Assembly: GCA_937895715.1 (NCBI GenBank)
Contig: CALBLZ010000132.1
Span: forward strand, 1 to 7,583
Direction of reading: 5' to 3'
DNA length: 7,583 nucleotides
Origin: an uncultured Candidatus Berkelbacteria bacterium
Lineage (GTDB): Bacteria > Patescibacteriota > UBA1384 > CAILIB01
Positions 1 to 7,583 of the stretch are shown one piece after another. The stretch's first letter is position 1; every line of letters starts with the position of its first letter. The translations under genes were made by a program, and so were the position numbers. The notes beneath the pieces were generated by a model, which saw nothing but the letters and a program-made list of their open reading frames with translations, ran no database searches and had not been told where the DNA came from.

Positions 1-590
1 ATAAAAGACAATCCTATTGTGGCGATGCCGAGTGCCACAAGCCCGATTACCACCCCCTTTTGAATCTTTGAGGTACGGGCTGTCAAAAAGACGGTTATCC
101 CCAATACTGCAATTACCAAGGTTGTCCCCAGATCAGGCTGTAGCATCACCAGCCCTAGTACGGTAACCAAGGCCACTCCGACTACCGTAAATTGGCGCCA
201 GCCAACAAACCGTGATCTCACTTGCAGGAGCGCAGGAAGCACGAGTAAGAGGAGGAGTTTGGCAAACTCACCGGGTTGAAACTGGATGAAGCCAAAGTCA
301 ATCCAACTCTTTGCGCCAAATATCTCATCCCCCACAATGAGCACTGCGATGAGTGACAGAACACAGATGAGATAGATCCATAGGCGCCAGGCACGCCAGG
401 CACGGTAGTCAACAAAGCTGAGGACCAACATACCAATAAACCCAAGTGCAGCAGCCACACCCTGGCGAATAACCAGGTTAGTACCTACCGCATCCACTGT
501 TAGCACGTAAATAAAGATCACACTTACCAACGAAAAAACCACTGGTAGCGCAAAAAGGAGAGGATCGAGGGTTTTAAAGCGTCCCCACAT
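1..590 (-). CDS. rodA: RodA/FtsW-family SEDS peptidoglycan glycosyltransferase, N-terminal part (cut by left edge)
   Basis: This is a polytopic membrane protein of the SEDS family, which polymerises glycan strands from lipid II during cell-wall elongation or division. I read the frame by hand: 196 codons are visible, starting MWGRFKTLDPLLF, and the rest lies beyond the window. About six to seven hydrophobic segments are visible, near residues 9-31, 39-61, 69-86, 104-123, 134-151, 154-170 and from 178 on. Family hallmarks are GAKSWIDFGFIQFQPGEFAKL (residues 92-112, where RodA proteins have G.KRWi.lg.f.fQPSElaKl) and QPDLGTTLV (151-159). The catalytic Asp of the family sits in a later loop and is not in the window. 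The loop between segments 2 and 3 has a doubled Arg-Ala-Trp. The start ATG shares one base with the ileS stop (TAATG), so translation is probably coupled; no Shine-Dalgarno is seen. RodA is preferred to FtsW because of the short N-terminus and motif style, but FtsW is not excluded. Confidence 0.88.
   Translation of the reverse strand, partial: MWGRFKTLDPLLFALPVVFSLVSVIFIYVLTVDAVGTNLVIRQGVAAALGFIGMLVLSFVDYRAWRAWRLWIYLICVLSLIAVLIVGDEIFGAKSWIDFGFIQFQPGEFAKLLLLLVLPALLQVRSRFVGWRQFTVVGVALVTVLGLVMLQPDLGTTLVIAVLGITVFLTARTSKIQKGVVIGLVALGIATIGLSF
386..403. repeat. Perfect 9-bp tandem duplication inside rodA
   Basis: The unit gccaggcac occurs twice back to back. Read on the minus strand it encodes Arg-Ala-Trp twice (residues 63-68) in the predicted cytoplasmic loop between the second and third membrane segments of RodA. 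It keeps the frame, so it adds three residues without disrupting the gene. It is probably a small slippage duplication. Confidence 0.8.
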
Positions 591-3475
591 TAGGCGCGAA
601 CACTAACCTGTACCGTCATCCCGCTAATCGTAATGTCTGTGTCCCCCATTTGCTGCCACGTCTCATCCGTAACCTGGAAAAAGCCATCTGTCAGAATTGA
701 AGGATATTTTTGTAAGAGTTCCTTGAGATACTCGTGATGCGCCGGACCAAACAGAAGGGTCGCCATCTGTCCCGGTTGCAACCCAGATTGCTTGCGTAGG
801 TTCTGCAGCTGGCGCAGCAACTCACGCGCCTCCCCTTTTTCTTGAAGGTCTGGGGTTAGGGTTACGTCTAAGGCTACTGTAACGCCTCCTTCTGTTTTGG
901 ATGGATACCCTACCTCAACCTCTGCTACGAATTCTACCGACTCCACGTTCAGCTCGTCCTTTAGAATCTCAAGTAACTCCCCTTCTAGTGGAGGTGTGCC
1001 CACAACCTGGGCTGTGGCCAGGGGCTGACGAGTCTTTTGTTTCTCTTGGGCGCGCACAGCTAGGCCAAGCTCAACAGCAGCGCGCACATTTTGCATTGCA
1101 GTATCAATTTCAGGATTCACCATGGCATACGAGGCAGGCCACTCAGCTAGGTGTACCGACTCTGCATCGGAATCACTACGTAGCTGCTGAAAAATATTCT
1201 CACTCATAAATGGAGCGATTGGTGCCATAAGGAGTGACACACGCTTTAACAATGTGTGGAGGGTAAGGAAGAACGCCTTGTCGTCACGACGACGTGAACG
1301 GCGCAGGTACCAGGTTGATAACTCAACAATATGCTCTTCAATCTCACGCCCTGCTCGCAAAAAGTCGAGTGCATCGAGGTGTTTTGTTACACGCGCCACC
1401 AGTGCATCTTGCTGGCTCAGCGCCCACCTATCAAGCAAGGTAAGGTCGGCCGCCGAAAGCTCTGCTGACGTGACTGCTCGAGCATCTACCTGTGCCAGGT
1501 TGGCGTACGTGACCAGATAGTTGAGCATGTTCCACAACGGTACGGCAATCCGACGAAACGCAGCCTGCACATCTACAATACTCACCGCCTTGGTGTCCCC
1601 TGGTGCATTAACCGTAAAGATAAACCAACGCACCGCATCTGCTCCGGCTTCTGCAAAGGCTCCCATTGGCTCAATAACGTTACCAACCGACTTAGACATC
1701 TTTCGGCCATCACCATCAACGAGGTGGCCCATGCAGATCACTCGCTTGTACGCCGATTCCCCTTTCAACAGGGTACTGATGGCCATTAGGCTATAGAACC
1801 ACCCACGAGTTTGGTCGATAGCTTCGGCAATAAAGTCTGCTGGAAACTGGTTATTGGCTACGCGCCCTGAAGCAAACGGCATCGCACCAGAATCAAACCA
1901 AACATCTAGTACATACGGCTCATGCGCATACTCTTCGCCGTCATGCACCAAAACCACGTTGTCGATATGCGGACGATGTGGATCAAACGATTCCCCTATT
2001 TCAGCCGGGCTCTTTGCCAATGAGCGCAACTCCTCTAACGACCCGATGCAGAGAACCTTCCCTGTTTCAGACTTCCAAATTGGCAGCGGTGTGCCCCAAA
2101 AACGCTCCCGCGAAACTGCCCAATCACGGGCTTCGCGAATAAAGTCACCAAACCGACCTTCTTTGATATGTGATGGAATCCACTCAACAGCAGCGTTACT
2201 CTTCTTGAGCTCTTCGCGCTTAGACGACATTCGAATGTACCAAGAATCTTTCGCGTAGTAGATGAGTGGAGTCTTACAACGCCAACAATGTGGATAACTA
2301 TGCGTGATTGTTTGTTTTTTAAACAGCTTCCCTTTCTCGGTAAGCGACTTCAGAATTGGCACAAGTGCGTCGCGCACATTCATTCCAGAAAACTCGGTAA
2401 CTTCCGGGAGAAAAGCTCCTGTTAAATCTACGGTGTGTTGACGAGCAAGACCGAGTGACTTACCCAGCACAAAGTCATCTTCACCGTACATACAGGCGGT
2501 GTGCACAATGCCACTTCCATCGGTTGTGGTTACAAAGTCTGCAAGCACGCTCACAAACTTTTCGCCTTCGGCAGTATCAAGCACGCCTGGGAACAGCGGT
2601 TCATACCGAATACCTACCAGATCCTTACCTAGCTTTTCTTCGAGAATAACGTAGTCACCCTCAACAATTTCTAGTCGATCTTTGGCGAGTACAAGTTCAC
2701 GCTCACCCAAACGAATAACCACATAGGTAATGTCAGCACCGAGCGCCAGGGCTACATGGCCAGGAAGTGTCCAGGGGGTGGTAGTCCAGGCAATAAATGA
2801 GCGGTTTGGCTGATCAATCCACGGAAATGTCACAAATACCGAGACATCTTTTACATCTTGGTACTCCATTGCCAATTCAGCAGCAGATAAGCCCGTGCCA
2901 CAGCGTGGACAGTACGGCACCACTTTGTAATCCTTAAACACAAGGTCTTTGTCCCAGATCTGTTTAAATACAGACCACACTCCCTCAATGTATGAGGTTT
3001 GGTTGGTGGCGTAGGCGCTATCCAGATCATCCCAGCGTGCCACACGGTCGATAAACCGGTTCCAGTCTTGGATGTACTGCCAGACACTTTCGGAACAAGC
3101 GGTGTTAAACTTGGCGATTGAAGCTGACTCATCCCCTGGCACCAGATTCAGCACATCTTTCTTACTTGAAAGACCAAGCGCCTTTTCAACCTGCACTTCT
3201 ACCGGTAGGCCGTGGGTGTCCCAGCCTGGCTGACGCAGTACTTCAAACCCCTGCATAACCTTATAGCGGCAGGCAGCGTCTTTAAAGGCGCTGGGCTCGG
3301 CGTGGTGGAGAGCTGGCTTAGCATTAGCAGTCGGTGGTCCATCATAAAATACGAAGGGCTTGGCCCCAGCATTACGGCTGCGAGCCTTGCCAATGATCCC
3401 CTTCTCTTTCCAAAAACGTAGTAAATCTTCTTCTTTCGTTGGAAAATGGGGGCTTGGTTCAAGCGGAGAATACAT
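590..3475 (-). CDS. ileS: Isoleucyl-tRNA synthetase, eukaryote-like type 2 (IleRS2), with altered HIGH signature
   Basis: This cytoplasmic class I enzyme charges tRNA-Ile with isoleucine and hydrolyses mischarged valine. It has 961 residues. The Rossmann core opens with YDGPPTANAKPALHHAEP (residues 44-61), where the HIGH box is A55-L56-H57-H58. GWDTHGLPVE follows at 84-93. The CP1 editing domain covers roughly 190-390, with the Thr-rich WTTTPWTLPGH (230-240) and GIVHTACMYGEDD (322-334). The second half of the core has WAVSRERFWGTPLPIW (452-467), DVWFDSG (524-530) and KMSKS (592-596). An anticodon-binding helical domain (about 640-830) and a C-terminal domain with KTRQPLA complete it. There is no C-terminal zinc cysteine cluster, as expected for type 2. 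It is somewhat shorter than typical type 2 enzymes of about 1,000-1,050 residues. The start lies 9 bases after rnhA without a Shine-Dalgarno; M1 fits because the N-terminal FPTKEEDLLRFWKEKGI block needs it. A single full-length frame argues against a pseudogene. Confidence 0.97.
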   Translation of the reverse strand: MYSPLEPSPHFPTKEEDLLRFWKEKGIIGKARSRNAGAKPFVFYDGPPTANAKPALHHAEPSAFKDAACRYKVMQGFEVLRQPGWDTHGLPVEVQVEKALGLSSKKDVLNLVPGDESASIAKFNTACSESVWQYIQDWNRFIDRVARWDDLDSAYATNQTSYIEGVWSVFKQIWDKDLVFKDYKVVPYCPRCGTGLSAAELAMEYQDVKDVSVFVTFPWIDQPNRSFIAWTTTPWTLPGHVALALGADITYVVIRLGERELVLAKDRLEIVEGDYVILEEKLGKDLVGIRYEPLFPGVLDTAEGEKFVSVLADFVTTTDGSGIVHTACMYGEDDFVLGKSLGLARQHTVDLTGAFLPEVTEFSGMNVRDALVPILKSLTEKGKLFKKQTITHSYPHCWRCKTPLIYYAKDSWYIRMSSKREELKKSNAAVEWIPSHIKEGRFGDFIREARDWAVSRERFWGTPLPIWKSETGKVLCIGSLEELRSLAKSPAEIGESFDPHRPHIDNVVLVHDGEEYAHEPYVLDVWFDSGAMPFASGRVANNQFPADFIAEAIDQTRGWFYSLMAISTLLKGESAYKRVICMGHLVDGDGRKMSKSVGNVIEPMGAFAEAGADAVRWFIFTVNAPGDTKAVSIVDVQAAFRRIAVPLWNMLNYLVTYANLAQVDARAVTSAELSAADLTLLDRWALSQQDALVARVTKHLDALDFLRAGREIEEHIVELSTWYLRRSRRRDDKAFFLTLHTLLKRVSLLMAPIAPFMSENIFQQLRSDSDAESVHLAEWPASYAMVNPEIDTAMQNVRAAVELGLAVRAQEKQKTRQPLATAQVVGTPPLEGELLEILKDELNVESVEFVAEVEVGYPSKTEGGVTVALDVTLTPDLQEKGEARELLRQLQNLRKQSGLQPGQMATLLFGPAHHEYLKELLQKYPSILTDGFFQVTDETWQQMGDTDITISGMTVQVSVRA

Positions 3476-3484
3476 AGAGAGAAG

Positions 3485-3904
3485 TTAAAGCGTACCGTCG
3501 AGTGCCGCATTTACCAATGCATCTGCAACCTTATTTTGTTCGCGGCGAACGTGGGAGAACTGGTACGGCACGGTAATTGTTTTCAGGATAATGAGAATTT
3601 TTTGAGCAAGCTCCTGTAAGCTCGGCTCCTTAATTCGGTATACACCGGTGAGCTGCTTTACAACGAGTTCGCTATCTAAATAAAAGTGGAGTGATTGAAA
3701 TTGCGGCGCACCCGCAATACGAAACGCCTGAATCTGTTCTAGCGCATCGACTACGGCCATGTACTCTGCAACATTATTTGTGGCATCACCAATACAGCGG
3801 CCGTGTTTATGCTCCCACTCGCCCATTTGAAAGTGCACACCAACAGCTGCTGGCCCTGGATTGCCGCGTGCTCCGCCATCGGTATGAATTGAGAGAACTG
3901 TCAT
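3485..3904 (-). CDS. rnhA: RNase HI-like ribonuclease H
   Basis: It degrades the RNA strand of RNA-DNA hybrids (R-loops, primers) in the cytoplasm. The 139-residue product has the complete metal-binding quartet of the RNase H fold: D9 in HTDGGARGNPGPA, E47 in NNVAEYMAVVDAL, D77 in FYLDSELVVKQL and D128 in VRREQNKVADALVN. The wording of these motifs resembles the short RNase H proteins of archaea and Gram-positive bacteria (no basic-protrusion handle) more than E. coli RnhA. I start it at the ATG at 3904 rather than at in-frame TTG (3940) or GTG (3928) codons: the 12 extra residues resemble no RNase H N-terminus, and a good promoter overlaps them. It is the first gene of the rnhA-ileS-rodA run. 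The symbol is by family; the archaeal-like subtype makes strict orthology uncertain. Confidence 0.92.
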   Translation of the reverse strand: MTVLSIHTDGGARGNPGPAAVGVHFQMGEWEHKHGRCIGDATNNVAEYMAVVDALEQIQAFRIAGAPQFQSLHFYLDSELVVKQLTGVYRIKEPSLQELAQKILIILKTITVPYQFSHVRREQNKVADALVNAALDGTL

Positions 3905-3911
3905 GGCTTTT

Positions 3912-3940
3912 ATACTAGCGTATTTCACTCCTGAAACCAA
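3912..3940 (-). promoter_or_regulatory. Candidate sigma70-type promoter for rnhA-ileS-rodA, giving a leaderless mRNA
   Basis: On the minus strand TTGGTT (3940-3935) and TAGTAT (3917-3912) are 17 bases apart. Only seven bases (AAAAGCC) separate the -10 box from the rnhA ATG, so transcription would begin at or next to the start codon. This agrees with the lack of a usable ribosome binding site. An AGGAG lies more than 20 bases upstream of the ATG, too far to serve it. This is inferred from consensus matching only. Confidence 0.5.
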
Positions 3941-3955
3941 CGAGCTATGGGCACA

Positions 3956-3984
3956 TTGACATACAAAGGTAATGGGAGTATTTT
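3956..3984 (+). promoter_or_regulatory. Candidate strong promoter directed rightward, away from rnhA
   Basis: On the plus strand a perfect TTGACA (3956-3961) is followed after exactly 17 bases by TATTTT (3979-3984, four of six -10 consensus positions). The expected start is near 3991. No protein gene lies downstream on this strand, but a region rich in nested inverted repeats does, which suggests that the product is a non-coding RNA. It is divergent from the rnhA promoter, with 15 bases between the two -35 boxes. Confidence 0.55.
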
Positions 3985-3990
3985 CCTTAC

Positions 3991-4293
3991 ATGTGGAAAT
4001 GGACTAATCTACCCGATTCGTTCCTTTCTGGAGTAAGTACCATCCGGTAATTCGCATGAATTGCTCTGGGCAACGTCGCCTGAGCATCCCATAGTACCCT
4101 CCTGCGGGAGGCGCGAACACATCCGGCTGGCGGTAACACCAGCGTAAAATCAGGCATCCGCCCCTTACGTCTACTTACTGGCTAACCACACGCCACCCCA
4201 AGTGCAGGAGCTCTCCCTCCGCAACGCACCACACACTCCTGACGAGCCGCATAGCAAGCACTTGTCGCCCTAACAGCCCCGTGTCACCTTTTT
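3991..4293 (+). ncRNA. Candidate structured non-coding RNA of unknown class
   Basis: The 410-base gap between rsmH and rnhA has no convincing protein gene but holds nested complementary segments. An 8-bp outer helix pairs AGTAAGTA (4032-4039) with TACTTACT (4172-4179). Inside it lie a hairpin 4049-4062 (AATTC, loop GCAT) and an arm that pairs 4068-4071 with 4160-4163 and then 4078-4083 (GCCTGA) with 4150-4155 (TCAGGC). That arm carries two hairpins: 4098-4111 (CCTCC, loop TGCG) and 4126-4143 (GCTGG/CCAGC). Downstream are 4202-4229 (GTGC-GGAG/CTCC-GCAC) and 4241-4266 (GACGAG/CTTGTC). The strand is inferred from the TTGACA promoter at 3956 and from two G-U pairs that form only on the plus strand; one hairpin instead gains a pair on the minus strand. 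The 3' end is placed at the T5 run (4289-4293) and is uncertain. The alternative is a minus-strand leader or the 3' untranslated region of rsmH. Confidence 0.45.
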
Positions 4294-4309
4294 CTAGGAG
4301 GCCGGGGCT
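4275..4309. terminator. GC-rich hairpin after rsmH, possible shared transcription end
   Basis: AGCCCCG (4275-4281) and CGGGGCT (4303-4309) can form a perfect 7-bp stem five bases beyond the rsmH stop codon. The 21-base loop contains T5 on the plus strand and A5 on the minus strand. Neither strand has a T-run directly after the stem, so it is not a textbook intrinsic terminator. It sits where the pilin-rsmH transcript and the rightward RNA would meet, and it may stop or protect both. Confidence 0.35.
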
Positions 4310-4313
4310 TCCC

Positions 4314-5213
4314 CTATTCCCCTAACTTTTCTACTACCCGTAGTTTTGCGCTACGAGAACGTGGGTTTACCGCTGTTTCCTCCTCGGAGGCTACGAGCGG
4401 CTTTTTTGTAATAACGGTAAAACCACCAGTCTCGGCTGCCTGACGGAATAACTCTTTCACGATCCGATCTTCGAGAGAGTGAAATGAAATCACAGCAAGA
4501 CGACCACCTGGCGCCAGCTGTTCAAGCGCAGCTTGAATCCCAATTTCTAGCGCCTCGAGCTCCTTGTTTACCTCAATTCGCAGCGCCTGGAAGGTGCGCG
4601 TGGCCGGGTGCGGCTTCTTGTGACGCATGGCGGGGTGATAGGCCTCGATAATCAGCTCGGCAAGCTCGGTGGTCTCTTCGATAACGTTTTTTCGGCGCTT
4701 TCGCACAATCTCTTTTGCAATTTTGGCAGCTACTCGTTCCTCCCCATAATTGCGCAGCAACATGGTGAGCTTGTGCTCTGGCCAGGTGTTCACAATCGTA
4801 AAGGCACTCACTGAGTTTTCTGGATCCATACGCATATCCAGTGGCCCCTGTGCCATAAATGAGAATCCCCGCTCTGGATCATCAATCTGCATACTGGAAA
4901 CCCCAACATCCATCAGGATTGCGTCACACTTGGGCATTCCCTGCTCGTGGGCAATCTCTTTCAAATCCATAAAATTACCCTTCACCAGGGTGAATGTTTC
5001 ATTGGGAAACGCTTCAAGCAGGCGGTCCTTTGCAATCGAGAGAGCAGTTTGGTCTTGATCAATGCCCCAAGTAGCTAGCTTGGAGCCGCCGAGCCGCTTC
5101 ATTGCAATAGTGTGACCAGCGAGACCCAGGGTTGCATCAAGAAAAACCCCGCCCCGTTCTGGGCGGAGCGCTTCGGTTACCTCTGCTTGTAGTACTGGAA
5201 TATGGATAGGCAT
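4314..5213 (-). CDS. rsmH: 16S rRNA (cytosine-1402-N4) methyltransferase RsmH (MraW)
   Basis: It transfers a methyl group from S-adenosylmethionine to N4 of C1402 in 16S rRNA, tuning the ribosomal P site. The 299-residue product starts MPIHIPVLQAEV and has family motifs along its whole length: the SAM loop FLDATLGLAGHT (24-35, usually DGTLGGGGHS), GIDQD (50-54), ILMDVGVSSMQIDDPERGFSF (99-119), GPLDMRMDP (123-131), TFQALRIEVNKELE (207-220), ISFHSLEDRIVK (242-253) and NPRSRSAKLR (283-292). Two glycines of the SAM loop are replaced (A27, L31-A32), which is a mild departure. I chose the ATG at 5213, whose A is shared with the TAA of the upstream pilin gene (TAATG), over an in-frame GTG at 5249, because family members begin just before the H..VL box. 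No Shine-Dalgarno is visible, so coupling is likely. Unlike the usual dcw cluster, it follows pilin genes and is not followed by ftsL/ftsI. Confidence 0.96.
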   Translation of the reverse strand: MPIHIPVLQAEVTEALRPERGGVFLDATLGLAGHTIAMKRLGGSKLATWGIDQDQTALSIAKDRLLEAFPNETFTLVKGNFMDLKEIAHEQGMPKCDAILMDVGVSSMQIDDPERGFSFMAQGPLDMRMDPENSVSAFTIVNTWPEHKLTMLLRNYGEERVAAKIAKEIVRKRRKNVIEETTELAELIIEAYHPAMRHKKPHPATRTFQALRIEVNKELEALEIGIQAALEQLAPGGRLAVISFHSLEDRIVKELFRQAAETGGFTVITKKPLVASEEETAVNPRSRSAKLRVVEKLGE

Positions 5214-6265
5214 TACCGACAGACGTTTTGGTACGGACTCGGCTCGCACAGACCGGCTGCACTAAACGTAGGCGAAATATTGCGACGAATCAAGAAGGAG
5301 GTTGCTGGAGCATAGCCGCCCGTTCCATTAGTTTCGGCAACTAGTGTATAGGGTATCTTCTCTAACCTTCTGATTGAGTTGAGTACCTGAGATACCTCTG
5401 ATCTGTTGGCCTCTGACACAAGGTCATCCACGACCACAACAGGAGCGTCTGGGTCAACTGGCATCGGACCAGGAGCTGGCACTTCAAACCCCCCAGCAAA
5501 ATTTGGACGAAGAATTGCGACACTTCGGTACTGGGTACCATCAGCAGCTAGCCCCGTTCCCTCAACCGTGGTGAATCCTTTTTGAATCGCAAACGCTGCG
5601 CCGTCCCCACCCCCCGTACTCTCAACTATGATTACTGCATCTGTTGCTGTTGGCGGTGTTGCACTAACACCATAGCGCACCGTTAATGCGATTGCCTGAA
5701 CCGTATTCGACACGCTTAGGTCTCTCTGATTCGTGAGCGCCGCTCCCCATGTACTGCCATTATACTGTTCTATATCAAACTGCAGCCCGGAAAAAGATGT
5801 GTTGGTTCGTATCCTGAAACCCATGCTCCCTGCGCGAGGTACATCAAGAAGCACCTTGAAGCCATCGGGTAGATCCTGTGCCTGAAAGCTATAACTTGTC
5901 GCTTTCACCACGGTCCGAACCGCAAGCTGGTAGGTTCCACAGCTCTCTACGTAATTCACTTCAGCAACCGTGGTGCAATCTGTAGTTGAAAATCCACGTG
6001 TAACTGGCTCAAGCGTAGCAAGATCAACATTCCAGCTACCGTACTGATTATAGTTTGCCAACCCGCCATCCGGATCACCCTTACGCGCCCGCTGCATTCC
6101 TTCTTGGATCGCCGCTTCTGCGAGCGCCCGTGCGTTACTAATCGAGTCAAGATTAGAACGAGTGCGCAAACTTTGAACAAGCGCACGACTCCCCGCCAAA
6201 ATCACCACTGCCACAGCAGCCATGGTTAGGGTAACGAGTACAAGGGAAGAGGCTCGGCGCGTCAT
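5213..6265 (-). CDS. PilX/GspK-like minor pilin, putative pilus-tip protein
   Basis: This is a 350-residue envelope protein with one N-terminal membrane helix (about residues 7-30, after MTRRASS), followed by the ARALAEAAIQEGMQRA segment (45-60) that matches the A..AAE.G pattern of PilX and GspK proteins. It lacks the FTLIE box and Glu5, as GspK does. The body from about 125 to 260 is rich in Ser, Thr, Gly and short hydrophobic stretches, so it is probably beta-structured. A Pro-rich stretch (262-275) leads to a C-terminal part. Two cysteine pairs, C97/C109 and C340/C349, could form disulfides outside the cytoplasm. Its start overlaps the upstream PilW-like stop by four bases (ATGA) and its stop overlaps rsmH. 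By analogy with GspI-J-K it would sit at the tip of a type IV pilus. The family call rests on the N-terminus and gene order; the rest is not recognised. Confidence 0.75.
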   Translation of the reverse strand: MTRRASSLVLVTLTMAAVAVVILAGSRALVQSLRTRSNLDSISNARALAEAAIQEGMQRARKGDPDGGLANYNQYGSWNVDLATLEPVTRGFSTTDCTTVAEVNYVESCGTYQLAVRTVVKATSYSFQAQDLPDGFKVLLDVPRAGSMGFRIRTNTSFSGLQFDIEQYNGSTWGAALTNQRDLSVSNTVQAIALTVRYGVSATPPTATDAVIIVESTGGGDGAAFAIQKGFTTVEGTGLAADGTQYRSVAILRPNFAGGFEVPAPGPMPVDPDAPVVVVDDLVSEANRSEVSQVLNSIRRLEKIPYTLVAETNGTGGYAPATSFLIRRNISPTFSAAGLCEPSPYQNVCR

Positions 6266-6981
6266 GGTTGGGCCCGACTAATGGTGCGAGAAATAGTTAC
6301 AACAGAAGCAGGATCAACCGACGGAACATCAGCATACTTCATACGTTCATCATATCCAGCACTAAGTACCACGCGTAGCGCCATGTTGTCGTCTGTTGTA
6401 GGTGGGACAGCGTTAGGAACCCTTGAAGAAACGTCGTATACTCCAAAGTAACGAACATTAGTAAAATCATCAGTTAAATTGGTCTGGGTAAACTGAATCC
6501 CGCCTGCAGCCGACTCTATCTCCGCTTCACTACAGCCACTCGGTGTACTTAAAGGGATGTTTGTTAGAGCGTAGGGGCTAGTTGTGGTGAATACTGAGAC
6601 CCTCCCGTAAACACCAGCTTGTGCAGGCGCTGAAAATATAGAGCGGCAATACACGCGGACAAGGTTAGTCGTAAGCGGTAAGCCTCTCTCATCTAACCTA
6701 GGAACATTCATCGCAATTGCCCAGTAGTCATCAGCTGACCCCAATGCAAAGGTGCGCACCCGCGCATTAGAGGCATCCATGCTACGGTTAAGTGACTCGA
6801 GCTCACCTGCAAGTTGATCAAGGAGTGTCCCCGACTGATTAATCGTTGTCTGTGTGGTGCGTCGGTCTGCTTGTACCCGAGCAACCGTGGAAAAAATACT
6901 GAGTGTTAAGAATGATACTGCAACCATAATGGTGGCAGTCACGAGGAGCTCAATCAGGGTAAAGGCGCGGCGATTAATCAT
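6262..6981 (-). CDS. PilW/GspJ-like type IV minor pilin with prepilin signal
   Basis: It is a 239-residue prepilin. The N-terminus MINRRAFTLIELLVTATIM is a class III signal: a short basic leader, cleavage expected between A6 and F7, and the mature protein beginning FTLIE with Glu5 (E11) in place. A membrane helix runs to about residue 33. The residue before cleavage is Ala instead of the usual Gly; prepilin peptidases are known to tolerate this. The globular part contains two cysteines (C112, C150) and the segment YCRSIFSAP, with no recognised domain. PilW and GspJ proteins occupy this position between a PilV/GspI-like and a PilX/GspK-like gene, as here. It overlaps the upstream gene by eight bases (ATGATTAA) and the downstream one by four, so the three are probably translated together. 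No Shine-Dalgarno precedes the ATG. Confidence 0.85.
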   Translation of the reverse strand: MINRRAFTLIELLVTATIMVAVSFLTLSIFSTVARVQADRRTTQTTINQSGTLLDQLAGELESLNRSMDASNARVRTFALGSADDYWAIAMNVPRLDERGLPLTTNLVRVYCRSIFSAPAQAGVYGRVSVFTTTSPYALTNIPLSTPSGCSEAEIESAAGGIQFTQTNLTDDFTNVRYFGVYDVSSRVPNAVPPTTDDNMALRVVLSAGYDERMKYADVPSVDPASVVTISRTISRAQP

Positions 6982-7583
6982 TGCTGAGCACTATACTTTT
7001 GGTAGCTGTAAGATTAGTGCGGGTATTGGTTACGCTCACCCTAGCCGTGTGCAGGGTGATGCCATCTAGACTGTTCTTTTCCAATGAAATCACACGTCTG
7101 TAGTAATCGAGTCGAGCATCAGCAGCAGTAATACCCGGACCACTGCCTATGGTTGCATCGTACACCGAGCGCGATAGTGCTCCTGAACCACTCCAGGCGG
7201 ATCGGTTAACGGCAATTAGTTCGCCCGTTGTCGTAAGCATTGAGCCAAGAGTCAACCCATCAACCTTGCTCGGCTGGTTGTTGCATCCACCAGCAGTAAA
7301 TGCAAGGGAAGCATTCACCGCACACCAGCGGAGTTGTGTACCTGTGCGATATGGTATGACAGCTGCTGTCATATCGCTCGGGTTCACATACAGATAATCA
7401 GTAAGGGTCTTTGGTCCGGTAATCGGTGTGCGAACCGAGCGCTGCAACCCTACCAAGAGTCCGATGGCGTCATCAACGAGCCCTTCTGCCTGAGCACGAT
7501 CTTCACTAATTGCACTCGTCACGTAAAAGCTGCGACTGAACGCCACAGCACCGCCGAGCACCGTAATAATAATGGCGAGGGAG
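6974..7583 (-). CDS. PilV/GspI-like minor pilin, N-terminus cut by right edge
   Basis: 202 residues are visible up to the TAA stop and the frame stays open to the window edge. The first residues, SLAIIITVLGGAVAFSRSFYV, are the second half of a pilin-type membrane helix, so the prepilin leader and FTL.E box should lie just outside. The apparent GTG at 7561 falls within this helix and is an ordinary valine, not a start. After the helix comes an acidic amphipathic stretch (ISEDRAQAEGLVDDAIGLLVGLQRSV) typical of the alpha1 C-half of pilins, then a Ser/Thr/Gly-rich body with one close cysteine pair (RWCAVNAS and AGGCNN). The C-terminal HTARVSVTNTRTNLTATKSIVLS looks like an edge beta-strand. Size, position and the order with the next two genes suggest a PilV/GspI-type minor pilin, but the diagnostic N-terminus is missing. 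Confidence 0.75.
   Translation of the reverse strand, partial: SLAIIITVLGGAVAFSRSFYVTSAISEDRAQAEGLVDDAIGLLVGLQRSVRTPITGPKTLTDYLYVNPSDMTAAVIPYRTGTQLRWCAVNASLAFTAGGCNNQPSKVDGLTLGSMLTTTGELIAVNRSAWSGSGALSRSVYDATIGSGPGITAADARLDYYRRVISLEKNSLDGITLHTARVSVTNTRTNLTATKSIVLSND

Follow-up and report, generated by a model that had tools for sequence, protein, structure and literature searches.

A candidate structured RNA in the long gap between rnhA and rsmH

What does the one long spacer in a row of minus-strand genes hold? All genes that were recognised in the window (the whole 7583-base stretch of DNA that was analysed) are located on the minus strand and, read from the right, they comprise three genes followed by rsmH, rnhA, ileS and a partial FtsW/RodA gene. 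The junctions measure −1, 9, 409, −1, −4 and −8 nt, and the sole long spacer is the 409-nt gap that extends from the ATG of rnhA (3904) to the stop codon of rsmH (4314). The first-pass annotation had singled out a gene-free gap between rsmH and rnhA, and this was borne out, with the other five junctions at −8 to +9 nt. Solved RNases H support 3904 as the start of rnhA; the matches of the best four begin at residues 15–19 of the longer frame. The features that define the locus are:

590–3475, minus strand: ileS
3905–4313: gap without protein genes, from rnhA to rsmH (defined by codon scores, gene ends and the sizes of the junctions)
4314–5213, minus strand: rsmH, with its stop codon at 4314

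Upstream of rsmH, three overlapping genes occupy positions 5213–7582 of the minus strand. The gene at 6262–6981 contains a prepilin-type N-terminal methylation motif with a score just below the curated Pfam cut-off, and no Pfam family was matched by the other two, so the three may be a pilin-like set joined to the rsmH operon. Among the best 120 matches of IleRS, the best relative shares 82% identity and the others at most 66%. The informative labels among these matches are Patescibacteria group, Kerfeldbacteria, Zambryskibacteria, Doudnabacteria, Uhrbacteria and Minisyncoccia; labels of Verrucomicrobiae and Binatia, which may be misbinned, also occur. On this basis, the window very likely derives from a Patescibacterium. 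When the best 120 matches of RsmH and of IleRS were paired by eye, the two were apparently co-located in 23 cases besides the window (four of them on contigs shorter than 10 kb), which suggests that the rsmH–ileS neighborhood is conserved in related genomes. In a search of genome contigs with RsmH, the best 80 of 411 loci were all at most 51% identical, and none of these was labelled Patescibacteria. RsmH matched 61 plasmid records, all with less than 60% identity. Among viral contigs, no relative was found with IleRS; the RsmH alignment gave 2 loci and the IleRS alignment gave 12, none with two window genes at E ≤ 1e-4. The 19-mer matches of four viral contigs were set aside as coincidence (∼21–24 matching bases in unrelated coding DNA, with no wider similarity).

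The gap does not resemble coding sequence. The codon scores of its six frames range from −0.26 to 0.003, compared with a yardstick of 39 in-frame gene pieces that averages 0.200 and does not fall below −0.078, and the highest-scoring frame (0.003) is interrupted by 8 stops. The longest small ORF (3987–4157, minus strand, 56 aa) has a codon score of −0.212, and no candidate homologue was found for it; a Pfam search with 8 small ORFs of the gap gave no match. On the basis of codon scores, stops, and the homologue and Pfam searches, a protein gene or a recognisable pseudogene was rejected. The candidate RNA is thus located in non-coding DNA, as is expected of an independent small RNA gene in bacteria. 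Repeats were also rejected, with the sole exception of an 8-mer that is present in two copies at 4309–4324.

Our leading reading, tentative and with a chance somewhat short of even, is that the gap contains a plus-strand small RNA gene that matches no Rfam family. The elements from which it is built are:

3956–3984, plus strand: promoter-like site TTGACA-17-TATTTT, with a predicted start near 3991
3995–4029, plus strand: predicted 5′ hairpin with three runs of pairs, 13 in total (pair probability 0.67–0.96)
4030–4313, plus strand: GC-rich block that would form the body of the RNA (59.2% GC)
4032–4179, plus strand: branched domain of the predicted fold, which the 8-bp helix 4032–4039/4172–4179 closes
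4275–4309, plus strand: strongest predicted hairpin, 13 pairs (pair probability 0.98–0.99; −21.4 kcal/mol for 4270–4310)
4295–4324, plus strand: terminator-like hairpin with a T run, just past the gap
4370–4407, plus strand: terminator-like hairpin 4370–4400 followed by TTTTTT at 4402–4407, antisense to the end of rsmH

Of the alternatives, the one that survives best is that no RNA gene is present and the gap marks an operon boundary, with promoter DNA at 3905–4029 and, adjoining it, GC-rich sequence of old or foreign origin whose folding is due to chance. We regard this as rather unlikely. The gap DNA had no relative among phages and plasmids, which is in line with a plain spacer. However, its base composition is exceptional: the 59.2% GC of the 284-nt block 4030–4313 was equalled by none of the 6608 same-length windows outside the gap (maximum 56.7%), and all other junctions are at most 9 nt long. 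The preceding segment (3905–4029) has 40.8% GC, which is equally low in only 37 of 6926 same-length windows outside the gap. In the portions of the literature cited here, long GC-rich gaps are the search ground of published pipelines for new RNAs (PMC8723152; PMC11109978). The absence of any recognised protein remnant also argues against an old sequence without an RNA gene.

The predicted fold of the plus strand bears on both readings. The 8-bp outer helix that the first-pass annotation had proposed is present at 4032–4039/4172–4179, as are the two-hairpin inner arm (hairpins 4062–4086 and 4098–4111) and a further stem (4240–4246/4261–4267). A Watson–Crick helix of at least 8 bp occurs in 29% of 200 dinucleotide shuffles, so the outer helix alone is at chance level, as a plain spacer would have it. 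The same holds for the span 3991–4293 that had been proposed for the RNA, for which the folding z-score is −0.27 and 74 of 200 shuffles are equally stable. The fold signal of this span is lost because position 4293 cuts the strongest hairpin (4275–4309), and the right end must therefore be shifted to at least 4309. For 3991–4313, z is −2.1 to −2.31 on the plus strand and about −0.7 on the minus strand; for 4030–4313, it is −2.45 on the plus strand and −0.70 on the minus strand; and for the domain 4030–4181, it is −2.0 to −2.3 on both strands. Among 24 coding windows, the mean z is −0.16 on the plus strand (lowest −1.43) and −0.05 on the minus strand (lowest −3.10). The plus-strand value of 4030–4313 is lower than in any of the 24 coding windows of the same strand, which argues against a plain spacer, but values near −2 are also reached in coding windows, and one of the 24 on the minus strand (−3.10) lies below the gap. 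In a 150-nt scan of the plus strand, the two best gap windows ranked second and fourth of 100, with a coding window in first place. In a yardstick from one phylum, for which half of 30 RNase P RNAs and half of 30 tmRNAs were folded (15 each), z was −3.30 for RNase P RNA (antisense −2.33) and −2.73 for tmRNA (antisense −2.23). By comparison with these sense and antisense values, the plus strand of the gap behaves like a modest structured RNA or the antisense of one.

The promoter-like site of the plus strand, which had been described as a perfect promoter, is located in the AT-rich upstream part of the gap. Its −35 box (TTGACA, 3956–3961) is indeed perfect and the spacing is 17 nt, but TATTTT (3979–3984) fits TATAAT at only four of six positions. 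Its score was matched in 1.35% of one-strand shuffles of the gap. Two other plus-strand sites score 10/12, at 3889 and at 4723 (inside rsmH); the former (TTGAGA-16-TATACT, 3889–3916) overlaps the start of rnhA. The minus strand of the window lacks any site of at least 10/12; the average in window shuffles was 0.39 promoter-like sites per strand. The plus strand of the window carries five terminator-like hairpins, two of them at the far end of the candidate. In shuffles of the window, such hairpins occur ∼3.2 times per strand. This is their background frequency, as a plain spacer would predict, and the hairpins at 4295–4324 and 4370–4400 are thus only consistent with an RNA end at these positions. 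The minus strand of the gap has no terminator-like hairpin. The strong hairpin 4270–4310 starts a few bases behind the stop codon of rsmH. As no T run follows it on the minus strand, this hairpin does not qualify as a classical rsmH terminator.

The second alternative places the RNA on the minus strand, as a rod-like or branched molecule that is co-transcribed with rsmH and serves as a 3′ UTR, a processed small RNA or a leader of rnhA–ileS–ftsW; with all of these roles taken together, it is unlikely. It is based on the following feature:

4063–4274, minus strand: alternative predicted fold, one long rod (nesting depth 68)

All genes of the window run in this direction, and a depth of 68 was reached by only 7 of 500 shuffles, compared with a depth of 25 on the plus strand. 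However, the ends of the rod were chosen after the fold had been seen, and its minimum free energy z is −1.33. The domain 4030–4181 is equally stable for its composition on both strands, but the z of −0.70 for the whole block on the minus strand speaks against the minus-strand reading, as do the missing promoter-like site and terminator-like hairpin. Base skew points the other way. The GC skew of the plus strand is −0.214 for 4030–4313 and −0.231 for 3991–4293. In a reference set of 107 RNAs from one phylum (30 RNase P RNAs, 30 tmRNAs, 17 6S RNAs and 30 SRP RNAs), the sense strand has more G than C in 94 cases, and none falls below −0.07. With at most 30 loci taken per family, these were drawn from 38 genomes in which RNase P RNA was matched, 37 genomes with a tmRNA over the cut-off, 22 6S matches (the 17 over the cut-off being kept) and 38 SRP matches. 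Since the plus strand is C-rich and reference RNAs are mostly G-rich, the minus strand has the more usual composition. The segment 4182–4269 is strongly asymmetric between the strands, with a plus-strand GC skew of −0.418; outside the gap, only 21 of 7000 windows of this length have a skew as low. The strand is therefore contested, with the fold z and the promoter favoring plus and the base skew favoring minus. We rank the plus strand first because the promoter, the layout of AT- and GC-rich segments and the fold z agree, and the margin is small.

T-box leaders precede isoleucyl-tRNA synthetase genes, and the gap lies upstream of rnhA–ileS. A search of the gap on the minus strand, allowing at most 3 mismatches, gave no T-box motif, and the best site has 4 mismatches, as is usual in shuffles. 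A T-box leader of ileS was thus rejected, which counts against the minus-strand reading.

Rfam searches of both strands at E ≤ 10 gave no match in the window or in the 461 nt around the gap, whereas control loci searched in the same way yielded tRNAs, RNase P RNA and tmRNA. No match was obtained in the gap with the models for RNase P RNA (RF00010), tmRNA (RF00023), SRP RNA (RF00169) or 6S RNA (RF00013); ARAGORN made no tmRNA call in the window, and with no tRNA or tmRNA predicted, both were rejected for the gap. The core of RNase P RNA is marked by CR-I and CR-V, the 3′ part of tmRNA by its T-arm and SRP RNA by the GGAAG...AGCA loop, and 6S RNA forms a rod with a large central bubble. As RNase P RNAs of Patescibacteria can fall below the usual cut-offs, core motifs were scored in addition, using a panel of motifs (RNase P, tmRNA, SRP, 6S, 5S, T-box and introns) and one-strand shuffles. 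The best sites for CR-I and CR-V have 3 and 4 mismatches, which were equalled in 28% and 75% of shuffles, respectively; the T-arm motif has 3 mismatches (93% of shuffles), the short SRP motif has 2 (26%), and the 6S motif is at background level in the gap. The lowest fraction of the panel (0.08) belongs to the long SRP motif, with 6 mismatches in 18 positions. In agreement with the first-pass annotation, which had found no signature of RNase P RNA, tmRNA, SRP RNA or 6S RNA, none of these motifs is clearly above background.

Library models can nonetheless miss diverged members. The Rfam 6S model reaches E ≤ 1e-6 in 22 of 39 genomes of the yardstick phylum and misses 17, and the minus-strand rod has a depth per base of 0.32, near the 0.17–0.30 of 17 6S RNAs, although its predicted fold lacks a large central bubble. 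In the cited part of the work of Lui et al. (PMC8172020), RNase P RNA was initially missing from 10 of 35 circularised genomes and was found only at lowered thresholds. A strongly diverged RNase P, tmRNA, SRP or 6S RNA that the models overlook is nevertheless highly improbable here, given that no match was obtained at E ≤ 10 in a search space of only 461 nt and that the core motifs are not clearly closer than in shuffles.

We return to the plus-strand small RNA gene. Its transcription would start from the promoter-like site 3956–3984, near position 3991, diverge from rnhA–ileS and converge on rsmH, and it would probably end near 4330 or 4407, leaving a tail of up to 94 nt antisense to the end of rsmH. 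The transcript is predicted to fold into the 5′ hairpin, the branched domain 4032–4179 and the strong 3′ hairpin 4275–4309. Its folded body might act in trans, as a structured RNA in its own right, while the antisense tail might base-pair with the rsmH message and contribute to its 3′ end formation or its decay. That this RNA represents a lineage-specific class of structured RNAs of Patescibacteria, encoded on the plus strand between rnhA and rsmH, with the core 4032–4179, the hairpin 4275–4309 and an antisense tail, and absent from Rfam 15, is possible though doubtful. The structured RNA candidate of the first-pass annotation accordingly keeps its non-coding gap, GC-rich block, promoter-like site and lack of an Rfam match, and its fold signal comes into the range of real structural RNAs once the right end is placed at 4313. 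In summary, the locus is a well-placed candidate structured RNA rather than an established discovery.

Patescibacteria are difficult to cultivate, and their genomes are small. Little was found in print on regulatory RNAs of their own, and no such class appears in the titles and abstract openings that were found. If the candidate is real, an RNA class encoded next to genes for ribosome, tRNA and cell-wall functions would offer a concrete handle on the RNA biology of this group.

When the candidate is compared with known systems, resemblances and differences are apparent in each case. Like an ileS T-box leader, the gap is long, leader-sized and located upstream of rnhA–ileS on the minus strand, but it is devoid of the T-box motif (at most 3 mismatches). 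The minus-strand rod resembles 6S RNA (RF00013) in shape and in its length near 200 nt, and differs from it in the missing central bubble and Rfam match and in a motif at background level. Unlike RNase P RNA, the gap has no recognisable CR-I or CR-V and no match at E ≤ 10. The diverged RNase P RNAs of Patescibacteria, as described in the cited part of PMC8172020, presumably come from the same kind of host, have a similar length and may escape standard thresholds. In the consulted portion of a 50-genome survey (PMC11109978), counts of 2948 ‘Known ORFs’ and 250 ‘Mobile/repeat sequence candidates’ are given, which indicates that such gaps are often not RNAs; many of the survey gaps proved to be ORFs, in contrast to the gap between rnhA and rsmH, which shows no sign of an ORF. 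The candidates of that survey and of DIMPL (PMC8723152) were, in the sections drawn on here, compared across genomes, whereas the present one is known from one sequence. What it shares with them, as far as those sections go, is the setting in which they were found, namely a long GC-rich gap with predicted structure that belongs to no known family.
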